In this document: piece by piece, positions 41,527-48,831 of the stretch
How the letters are laid out: the number at the start of each line of letters is the position of its first letter
Numbering within the stretch: the stretch's first letter is position 1
NCBI GenBank assembly: GCA_015655355.1
Contig: JAATFG010000016.1
Span: 1 to 64,000 of the forward strand
Origin: Lysobacterales bacterium
GTDB lineage: Bacteria; Pseudomonadota; Gammaproteobacteria; Xanthomonadales; Xanthomonadaceae
Length of the DNA: 64,000 nucleotides
Reading direction: 5' to 3'
Notes under the pieces: model-generated
What the model was told of the DNA's origin: nothing
Database searches by the model: none
What the model saw: the letters and a program-made list of their open reading frames with translations, nothing else
Translations under genes and position numbers: made by a program

Positions 41527-44869
<3,343 letters not shown>

Positions 44870-45964
44870 TCACGCAGGCGGGAGCAGGCCTACTTGCCCT
44901 TGTTCCACGTGGAACCGCGTCGCGGCGACCGCCAGCATTTCCACGCCCGGCGGCAGCTCGGTGCCAGTGACGAACACTTGCGCCGCATTGCCCAGCAGAC
45001 GTTCCAGCACGCGCCGCTGATGCTCACGATCCAGCTCCGACGCCAGATCATCCAGAATCACGATGGGCCACTCACCGCGCTGCGTCAGGAAATCCTCGGC
45101 CTGCGCTAGCAAACAGGCCAACGCGGTCAGCTTGGCCTGCCCACGCGACAAGTCCTCGTCGTTCGGGCGATGCGCGTACCGAATCCGCCAATCCGCGCGA
45201 TGCGGCCCGGCGCTGGTGTACCCGGCCGCCCTGTCCCGCTCGCGCGCCAGCAGCAACGCGTCGGCCAGCGACATCTCCTGCCGTTTCCAGCCCGGTGAAA
45301 AGGAAATCTCGGCCGTACCCAGTTCCGGCACCAGACTGGCGGCCATTTCGGACAGGTGATGCTGCAAGCGGGCCAGATAGGCCTGCCGGCGCCGGGTCAA
45401 CGGTTCCCCGGCTTCGGCCAGCTCGCGATCCCACGTGTCCAGCTGACGGGAATCACCGCCGGCTTTCAGCAGGGCATTGCGCTGCTTGAGCGCCCGCGCG
45501 TAGCGGCGCCAGATCGGGACGAAGTCCTGTTCCACGTGGAACAGGCCCCAATCGACGAAACGCCGCCGGGGGTCGCCATTGCCAGACACCAGTGAATGAC
45601 TGCCCGGCTCGAAGCTGACTACCGCCAGCGCTGCGCACAGATCGCCCAGCTGGGCCACGGACTGCCCATCCAGCCGCCCTTCCCACTTCTGCCCGTTGTG
45701 GCGCAGCCCGACGCGATGGGTTCGGGTTTCACCGAACTCCTGCCACTCGGCGAAAACCTCGACTGCCTCGGTGCCGGTACGAATCAGTCCGTCTCGAACC
45801 CGCCCACGGAAGCTGCGCCCGTAAGCCAGCAGGTGCAATGCTTCCAGAATGCTGGTTTTGCCGGCGCCATTGCTGCCGGTGATCAGGTTCAGGCCCTCGC
45901 CCGGCGCCAGATCGGCTCGTTCCAGGCAGCGCACGCTGGCCAGTTGCAGTCGGGTCACCCGCAT
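44870..45964 (-). CDS. recF: DNA replication/repair protein RecF
   Basis: MRVTRLQLASVRCLERADL...LITGSNGAGKTSILEALHLLAYGRSFR; syntenic with dnaN/gyrB. Confidence 0.96.
   Translation of the reverse strand: MRVTRLQLASVRCLERADLAPGEGLNLITGSNGAGKTSILEALHLLAYGRSFRGRVRDGLIRTGTEAVEVFAEWQEFGETRTHRVGLRHNGQKWEGRLDGQSVAQLGDLCAALAVVSFEPGSHSLVSGNGDPRRRFVDWGLFHVEQDFVPIWRRYARALKQRNALLKAGGDSRQLDTWDRELAEAGEPLTRRRQAYLARLQHHLSEMAASLVPELGTAEISFSPGWKRQEMSLADALLLARERDRAAGYTSAGPHRADWRIRYAHRPNDEDLSRGQAKLTALACLLAQAEDFLTQRGEWPIVILDDLASELDREHQRRVLERLLGNAAQVFVTGTELPPGVEMLAVAATRFHVEQGQVGLLPPA
44901..44916. promoter_or_regulatory. parS-like palindrome 1 (in 3' end of recF)
   Basis: TGTTCCACGTGGAACC; core GTTCCACGTGGAAC. 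Confidence 0.75.
45528..45543. promoter_or_regulatory. parS-like palindrome 2 (inside recF)
   Basis: TGTTCCACGTGGAACA, perfect; extends to 20-bp palindrome CCTGTTCCACGTGGAACAGG (45526-45545). Confidence 0.85.
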
Positions 45965-46002
45965 CGCGGCCGCTCCAGCTCGAAACTTCGCGCCCGCGCA
46001 GC

Positions 46003-46027
46003 AAAACGCCCGGCCTGGACCGGGCGT
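46003..46027 (-). terminator. Rho-independent terminator downstream of dnaN
   Basis: On - strand ACGCCCGG-TCCAGG-CCGGGCGT followed by TTTTG. Confidence 0.75.
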
Positions 46028-46033
46028 CGCCTG

Positions 46034-46049
46034 GGTTTCACGTGAAACA
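46034..46049. promoter_or_regulatory. parS-like palindrome 3 (recF-dnaN intergenic)
   Basis: GGTTTCACGTGAAACA; core GTTTCACGTGAAAC identical to the classic ParB-site core. Confidence 0.85.
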
Positions 46050-46061
46050 CGCCAACTTCCA

Positions 46062-47162
46062 TCAGAGCCGCAGTGGCATTACCACATGACGCGATCTCTC
46101 GTTGCCGGCCTCGCGGACCAGTGCCGAAGAGTTGGCATCGCGCAGCAAGATGACGATGAACTCGTCCTTCAGTGCCGACAGCGCATCCAGCAGATAATTG
46201 ACGTTGAAGGCGATCGCCAGCCCGTCCACCTTGGTTTCGGCTTCGATTTCTTCCTGCGCTTCTTCCTGTTCCGGGTTGTGCGCACTGATCTTCAACTGGT
46301 TGGGCGACACTTCCATGCGTACGCCACGGAATTTTTCGTTGGACAGGATCGCGGCGCGCTGCAGCGCGGCACGCAGGGCTTCGCGGTCCAGCTTCACTTC
46401 GCGGTCGGCACCGATCGGAATGACCGCCTCGTAATCGGGGAAGCGCCCATCGATCAGCTTGCTGGTGAAGCTGACGTCGTCACGCTTGACCCGGATATGT
46501 GCACGCCCGATTTCCAGTTCCAGGACGCGGTCGCCGCCTTCGAGCAAGCGCTGCAATTCGGTCACGCCCTTGCGCGGCACGATGATTTGGCGCTTGGTGC
46601 CGATCTGGGTTTCCAGCGCGGATTCGCACAGGGCCAGGCGATGGCCATCGGTAGCCACGCAGCGCAGGGTCTTGTCGCGCAAGTCGAACAACAGGCCATT
46701 GAGGTAATAGCGAACGTCCTGCTGCGCCATTGCGAATGCCGTGCGCTCGATCAGTTCCTTCAGTCCGGCTTCCGGAACGCTGATGCGCTCGGTGGCTTCC
46801 ACTTCGTCAACCGAAGGAAAATCGTTAGCCGGCAAGGTGGAAAGCGTGTAGCGGCTACGTCCCGCTTGCACCGTTACCTTGTCCGCATTCTGGATCACCG
46901 TCACATGGCTGCCATCGGGCAAGGCTCGGATGATCTCGAACAGTTTGCGCGCCGGAATCGTGATCTCGCCATCTTCGGCGCCCTCGACTGCGCAGCGCGC
47001 AATCATTTCCACTTCGAGATCAGTTCCGGTCAGGGACAACTGCCCGTCCTTTACCTGTACCAGGAAATTGGCCAGTACCGGCAAGGTTTGACGTCGTTCG
47101 ACGACGTTGACGACTTGGGCCAGTGGTTTGAGAAAGGCTTCACGCTGCAGGCTGAAACGCAT
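46062..47162 (-). CDS. dnaN: DNA polymerase III beta sliding clamp
   Basis: MRFSLQREAFLKPLAQVVNVVERRQTLPVLANFLVQV...; C-terminal VMPLRL. Confidence 0.97.
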   Translation of the reverse strand: MRFSLQREAFLKPLAQVVNVVERRQTLPVLANFLVQVKDGQLSLTGTDLEVEMIARCAVEGAEDGEITIPARKLFEIIRALPDGSHVTVIQNADKVTVQAGRSRYTLSTLPANDFPSVDEVEATERISVPEAGLKELIERTAFAMAQQDVRYYLNGLLFDLRDKTLRCVATDGHRLALCESALETQIGTKRQIIVPRKGVTELQRLLEGGDRVLELEIGRAHIRVKRDDVSFTSKLIDGRFPDYEAVIPIGADREVKLDREALRAALQRAAILSNEKFRGVRMEVSPNQLKISAHNPEQEEAQEEIEAETKVDGLAIAFNVNYLLDALSALKDEFIVILLRDANSSALVREAGNERSRHVVMPLRL

Positions 47163-47460
47163 GGGGTAGGACGCCTCTACGCTTTTAGGATTTGTATTTA
47201 AAATCAAAAAGATGGGGTGGTGGTAGTGCCGAAATTCCGGGAAAACCTATTCAACCAATTGAATCAAAAGGAATTTTTCCAATGGCCGTCAAGTGGAAAA
47301 ACAGCCTCCGGTCGGTACGCAAACCTGTGGACAAGAAAGCAGGATGGAAATCGTCCACCTGCTATCCACAGACTGCCCCTGTTTCGTCCACCAGTTTACG
47401 CAAATTGTCCGGACCTTGTTGATTCTAGGTGGTTGCTGGACAACCGACAGGGGTTTGGAA
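47163..47460. other. candidate oriC (dnaA-dnaN spacer) with DnaA-box-like sites and AT-rich stretch
   Basis: TGTGGACAA (47326-47334), CTATCCACA (47362-47370), weaker TCGTCCACC sites; AT-rich TTTGTATTTAAAATCAAAAAGA. Confidence 0.65.
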
Positions 47461-47499: not shown

Positions 47500-48831
47500 T
47501 CATTCGCTGAGCTTGCGGATCAGCTTGTCCCAGTCCTCGCGCAACTTGCCATCGGTTTCCATCAAGTGGCGAATCTGGCGGCAGGCATGCAGCACCGTGG
47601 TGTGGTCGCGGCCGTCGAAGGCATGGCCGATCTCCGGCAGGCTGTGTTCGGTCAGTTCCTTGGCCAGGGCCATCGCCATCTGGCGCGGTCGCGCAAGCGA
47701 GCGGGTGCGTTTCTTGCCCAGCAACTCCTTCAACTGCAGCGTGTAGTAATCGGCGACGATTTTCTGGATATTGGAAATGCTGATTGCCTGCTGTTGCGCG
47801 CGCAGCAAATCGCGCAGGGCTTCCTGGGCGAATTCGATGCTGATTTCGCGTCCGGTGAAATTGGCGCGGGCGGTCAGGGTGTTCAAGGCGCCTTCCAGGT
47901 CGCGGACGTTGCTGCGCATCTTCTTCGCCAGCAGGAAGGCCACTTCGTTGGGGATATGCGTGCCGCGTTCGGCGGCCTTGGCCAGCACGATGGCAGCGCG
48001 GGTCTCGAAGTCCGGCGGGTCGATGGCTACAGGCAAGCCCCATCCCAGGCGCGACTTGAGCCGCGGTTCGATGCCCTCCATCTCGCGCGGATAGCGGTCG
48101 CTGGTCATCACGATCTGCTGGCGGCCGTCGAACAGCACGTTGAAGATGTGGAAGAACTCTTCCTGGGTGGCTTCCTTGCCGGCGAAGAACTGCACGTCGT
48201 CGATCAGCAGCGCGTCGATGCTGCGGAACTGGCGCTTGAATGCCTCGGTGTTCTTGGCTCGCAGCGAATTGATGAAATGGTTGTAGAACTCGTCCGAACG
48301 CAGGTACAGCACGCGCGCCAAGGGATTCAGGCGGCGCATTTCGTTGCCAATCGCCGACATCAGGTGGGTCTTGCCCAGGCCGGTGCTGCCGTACAGCAGC
48401 AACGGGTTGTGCGCGCGGTCGCCCGGGCTCTGCGTGACCATCCACGCCGCATTGCGGCCCATCTTGTTGCTACTGCCTTCGATGAAGTTATCGAAGGTGT
48501 AATGCCGGTCGAGATTGCTGTTGAACGGTTCGGGCGCGGCAGTCGTGGCCGTGGCCGGCGCGTAGGCCGTGGTCGCCGGTGCCGCAACCCGTTCGCGGCG
48601 CGAGCCGATTTCCAGCACGACGCTGCCCAGGCCGTAGTGTCTGGCCAGTTCATGGATGCGCGGCAGGTAGCGCCCGTGAACCTGCTCGACGATGAAGGCA
48701 TTGGGCGCGAACAGCACCAATGTATCGCCGCGCAATTCGGGTTGCAGCGGTTTGAGCCAGGTTTGCACGTCTTCGGCCGGAAATTCGGCTGACAGGTGTT
48801 CCAGACAAAGGGGCCAAGCGTCCATCAGCAT
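47500..48831 (-). CDS. dnaA: chromosomal replication initiator protein DnaA
   Basis: [64 protein letters not shown]. Confidence 0.98.

Follow-up and report, generated by a model that had tools for sequence, protein, structure and literature searches.

Chromosomal parS sites within recF have been described before. In Pseudomonas aeruginosa, parS1 and parS2 lie inside recF (PMC5521831, PMC3909081), parS1-4 are bound by ParB in vivo, with spreading, as seen by ChIP-seq (PMC5098823), and a function of the parS sites in segregation has been shown (PMC5521831, PMC3909081, PMC5098823). In Xanthomonas citri, a parS site, TGTTCCACGTGGAACG, has been placed at the dnaN 3' end (PMC3937727, which refers to Livny et al. 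2007); the former paper speaks of 'at least one' site and makes no mention of sites in recF (PMC3937727). The parS clusters of Caulobacter and Bacillus belong to the same kind of ParABS system and have the same motif, but they lie outside recF, contain more sites and are spread differently. Caulobacter parS sites have also been found within essential or costly genes (PMC5815017).

Here, we focused on three palindromes in and next to recF in a window of 64,000 nucleotides (contig JAATFG010000016.1, positions 1 to 64,000) from a member of the Xanthomonadaceae (Table 1). All three are perfect matches to GTTYCACGTGRAAC, at 44902, 45529 and 46035 of the window, and are thereby 16-bp palindromes with the TGTTYCACGTGRAACA core of parS. 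The 16-mers occur exactly where the original prediction had placed them, and the 20-bp perfect palindrome that it described around site A is present as well. That prediction further suggested that the centromere-like locus is embedded in recF. Sites A and B do lie within recF, whereas site C lies outside any gene, in the 97-bp spacer between dnaN and recF (45965–46061). The genome-wide motif count that had been proposed gave three exact copies in total for the 2.65 Mb assembly. They are confined to 1.15 kb, so that the motif is not equally frequent far from the origin, the outcome that had been named as refuting. As only 0.02 exact matches are expected by chance at the base composition of this assembly, a chance origin of the three sites was rejected. 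The reversed pattern, used as a control, had no exact matches in the assembly, and near-matches with one or two mismatches were at background level (16 assembly-wide, including the three sites, versus 13 for the control).

Table 1. Features of the dnaA-dnaN-recF-gyrB region, in window coordinates.
Feature	Coordinates	Strand	Remarks
gyrB, DNA gyrase subunit B	42344..44851	-	Downstream of recF; NF011501, 1253 bits
recF, DNA replication/repair protein, 364 aa	44870..45964	-	Hosts sites A and B; TIGR00611, 336 bits, E 2e-100
parS site B	44901..44916	.	TGTTCCACGTGGAACC; recF codons 350-355, C-terminal FHVEQ
parS site A	45526..45545	.	TGTTCCACGTGGAACA (45528-45543) within 20-bp perfect palindrome CCTGTTCCACGTGGAACAGG; recF codons 141-146, central FHVEQ
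parS site C	46034..46049	.	GGTTTCACGTGAAACA; dnaN-recF spacer, just past dnaN stop
dnaN, beta sliding clamp	46062..47207	-	TIGR00663, 351 bits
dnaA, replication initiator	47500..48831	-	TIGR00362, 539 bits

Site B is the same 16-mer as the ChIP-confirmed parS1 and parS4 of P. aeruginosa, and site A the same as parS2 and parS3 (PMC5098823). Both organisms carry two origin-proximal parS sites within recF, a likeness drawn here at the level of the gene. The remaining sites differ. The two other main sites of P. aeruginosa, parS3 and parS4, are intergenic and lie beyond gyrB, whereas the third site here is found in the dnaN-recF spacer. In this respect it corresponds to the dnaN-end parS of X. citri, also a member of the Xanthomonadaceae (PMC3937727). 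Since both the recF sites of P. aeruginosa and the dnaN-end site of X. citri were already known, the arrangement is not new. What we add is the breadth of the conservation of the recF sites and the test of the peptide they impose; we found no description of class-wide, codon-level conservation of recF parS in the literature searched, which did not cover Livny et al. 2007.

The genes around the three sites are ordered dnaA-dnaN-recF-gyrB. One exact DnaA box (48899) and two with one mismatch each (47326 and 47362) mark, together with dnaA, the origin region, and the three sites cluster about 1–4 kb from dnaA and 1.3–4 kb from these boxes. The GC skew within the window was too weak for placing the origin. 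The assembly encodes one ParB (TIGR00180, 198.6 bits), with ParB_N, HTH_ParB and ParB_C domains and a GERR motif. It is encoded with a ParA ATPase, in a complete gidB-parA-parB operon (contig C51, L164, 7085–10138, minus strand) on a different contig from dnaA and recF in this draft assembly (94% complete, 7.5% contamination). When residues are numbered as in Caulobacter, starting from the conserved GRSR motif, this ParB has the parS-type contact residues R173, N178, G201 and R204, and it does not have the Noc-type residues Q173, K179, K184 and R201 (PMC7383237).

The three palindromes are almost certainly chromosomal parS (centromere) sites of the ParABS system of this bacterium. The parS-like reading of the original prediction draws support from their origin-proximal uniqueness, the parA-parB operon and the parS-type ParB. 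By homology with studied systems, ParB from the gidB-parA-parB operon would bind each palindrome as a dimer, load as a CTP-dependent clamp and spread over the dnaA-dnaN-recF-gyrB region, and ParA would then separate the origins after replication. Sites A and B would serve a double purpose, being bound by ParB as DNA and translated as codons of recF.

Next, we looked at how widely the sites are shared. The closest named matches of the window RecF are Lysobacter and Pseudoxanthomonas records (68–70% identity), which puts the window in the Xanthomonadaceae. Sites were present in all 38 genomes of the genus, with two to four each, and in 60 of 61 relatives. Most genus members that were read carry A and B at recF nucleotides near 422 and 1043–1079, and a third site mostly 7–16 nt past the dnaN stop, though the length of the spacer varies. 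In Stenotrophomonas maltophilia (L168), the third parS lies about 988 nt upstream of recF, much farther than in the other named relatives. It is possible, if somewhat unlikely, that some of the three sites are spare, for example site C in the spacer, which would refine the parS explanation and not exclude it. A single parS suffices in P. aeruginosa (PMC5098823), most genomes of the class have only two sites, site C is missing from most other families, and one member of the genus (G001) lacks site A and keeps B and C. However, all three sites are exact consensus matches, and nearly all of the genus members that were read retain a site in the spacer, even though its distance to recF varies.

Both recF sites were found in Pseudoxanthomonas, Stenotrophomonas, Luteimonas, Luteibacter, Dyella and Tahibacter, and also in Oceanospirillum, a Solemya symbiont and Litorirhabdus. 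They occupy corresponding recF nucleotides in Oceanospirillum, Litorirhabdus, Dyella and Stenotrophomonas. No recF sites were seen in Shewanella KJ10-1 and Psittacicella, nor in any of the 17 RecF loci read outside the Gammaproteobacteria. In an even draw of the class, 231 of 274 genomes contained the motif, most commonly exactly two copies, and about 12 contained a match to the reversed pattern. Two genomes had unusually many exact sites compared with this norm (12 in G177 and 8 in G332). Sites were absent from 8 of the 12 genomes without a detected ParB versus 35 of the 262 others (Fisher p=6e-5). As about 26 of the 43 genomes without an exact site had no recF match above the family cut-off in their assembly, many of these absences reflect assembly gaps or gene loss. 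In five genomes, two parS form a close pair, 36–106 bp apart (G216:C11, G327:C21, G203:C8, G316:C1 and G142:C1), and these genomes likewise have no recF match above the family cut-off. At the homologous codons of 129 recF genes, about one per gammaproteobacterial family, both sites were exact in 90, only the first in 13, only the second in 10 and neither in 16, so that the column of site A was exact in 103 genes and that of site B in 100.

The two parS sites within recF, at RecF residues 142 and 351, both encode FHVEQ (residues 142–146 and 351–355), as had been claimed. This peptide could be a functional RecF motif, with the palindromes a by-product of its coding. Related residues do occur at the two places in RecFs without sites, such as FHNEP and FTVEK in Escherichia coli K-12, which to our knowledge has no chromosomal parABS. 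Chromosomal parABS is absent from the Enterobacteriaceae (PMC3909081). As such residues persist without the site, some of the residues of the motif (F and, in many cases, H or E) may play a structural role. Other site-less RecFs usually diverge here (FYQFP, FHSQT, FYDDE, WKIEQ, FAVSG), which argues against a functional motif, and one of the three palindromes lies outside any gene. The codons are more telling. When homologous positions were chosen by protein only (FHV[EK], n=211, in the 129 recF genes), His was encoded by CAC in 207 of 211 (background 40%) and by the parS-breaking CAT in 4, and Val by GTG in 207 (background 33%), with 4 non-GTG codons. Glu was GAA in all 176 cases (background 54%) and never the parS-breaking GAG, and Lys was AAA in 35 of 35. 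The codon before the motif ended in G in 211 of 211 (background 26%), and the codon after FHV[EK] started with C in 211 of 211. As these genomes are related by descent, binomial p-values overstate the effect, but each family contributes only about one genome, and the codons are compared internally, with others of the same genes. Protein-neutral changes (GAG, CAT and GTA/C/T) are thus almost absent, and most of the parS-breaking synonymous exceptions came from genomes where both sites had changed. In contrast, the swap from GAA to AAA, which reverses the charge (E to K) and keeps parS, occurred in 35 of 211, and the last residue of the motif interchanged freely among Q, H, P and R with parS kept. 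Among the degenerate codon columns of recF, the seven with the highest uniformity are exactly the parS codons (93–98%; next best 74%, median 36%), and both sites are among the most conserved 14-nt windows of the gene. We therefore reject the protein-motif explanation, which these codon statistics leave very improbable. The DNA and not the function of the protein holds FHVEQ, fixing F-H-V-(E/K)-(Q/H/P/R) twice in RecF in most Gammaproteobacteria. As the two tags sit at the same recF codons across the class, the sequence of a short piece of RecF is set by the tag, and the original idea of a peptide imposed by the DNA site holds over the 129 recF genes.

Least probable of all is that the palindromes are another element kept in the replication operon (an RNA hairpin, an operator for some other regulator, or a methylation or restriction site), for although their inverted repeats lie within an operon that is transcribed and site C lies where a terminator or attenuator could sit, a gapless 14-nt palindrome without a loop should make a poor RNA stem, the consensus is that of parS letter for letter, the motif tracks the presence of ParB across genomes, and identical 16-mers are bound by ParB in P. 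aeruginosa (PMC5098823).

Among the genomes without an exact parS, several carry altered cores. The two recF copies share a CACATG core in G063 (L152, as reverse complements), G084 (L080) and G240 (L137), and a CACGTA core in G226 (L119). In G157 (L272, L281), two CATATG copies are spaced 612 bp apart, which is the recF spacing, and more widely spaced CACATG pairs lie on a single contig in G066 and G218/G329. In all eight ParBs of altered-core genomes, at least one of the contact positions 170–172, 179 or 204 carries a residue seldom seen in the 57 ordinary ParBs, a pattern noticed post hoc in genomes that may simply evolve fast. T177 in ParB seemed to separate the altered cores cleanly with six variant genomes. 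It was dropped in the larger set, where 6 of the 8 variant ParBs have it and so do 20 of the 57 ordinary ones (p=0.05). The 1.0 Mb genome G233 (L100), where no ParB was detected, has a recF in which both sites have decayed, with 2 mismatches in one and 1 in the other, as would fit relics left behind by the loss of ParB. We lean slightly towards a history in which the centromere became tied to two homologous codon positions of recF early in the descent of the Gammaproteobacteria and has stayed there, writing two short pieces of RecF. Drift of ParB would have led to both copies being rewritten together (CACATG, CATATG, CACGTA), and loss of ParB would have released RecF.

Our analysis places the predicted centromere of an unstudied Xanthomonadaceae genome. 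The codon statistics from about 130 genomes reveal that, within a core repair gene, a site for chromosome segregation prevails over choice at the protein level. RecF residues at the parS spots should thus not be taken as functional motifs, and knock-outs or recodings of recF in Gammaproteobacteria can disturb segregation. If the history proposed above is true, recF would be a readable record of ParB-parS co-evolution. The lineages in which both sites changed in step are natural test cases for a joint change in the specificity of a centromere and its binding protein.
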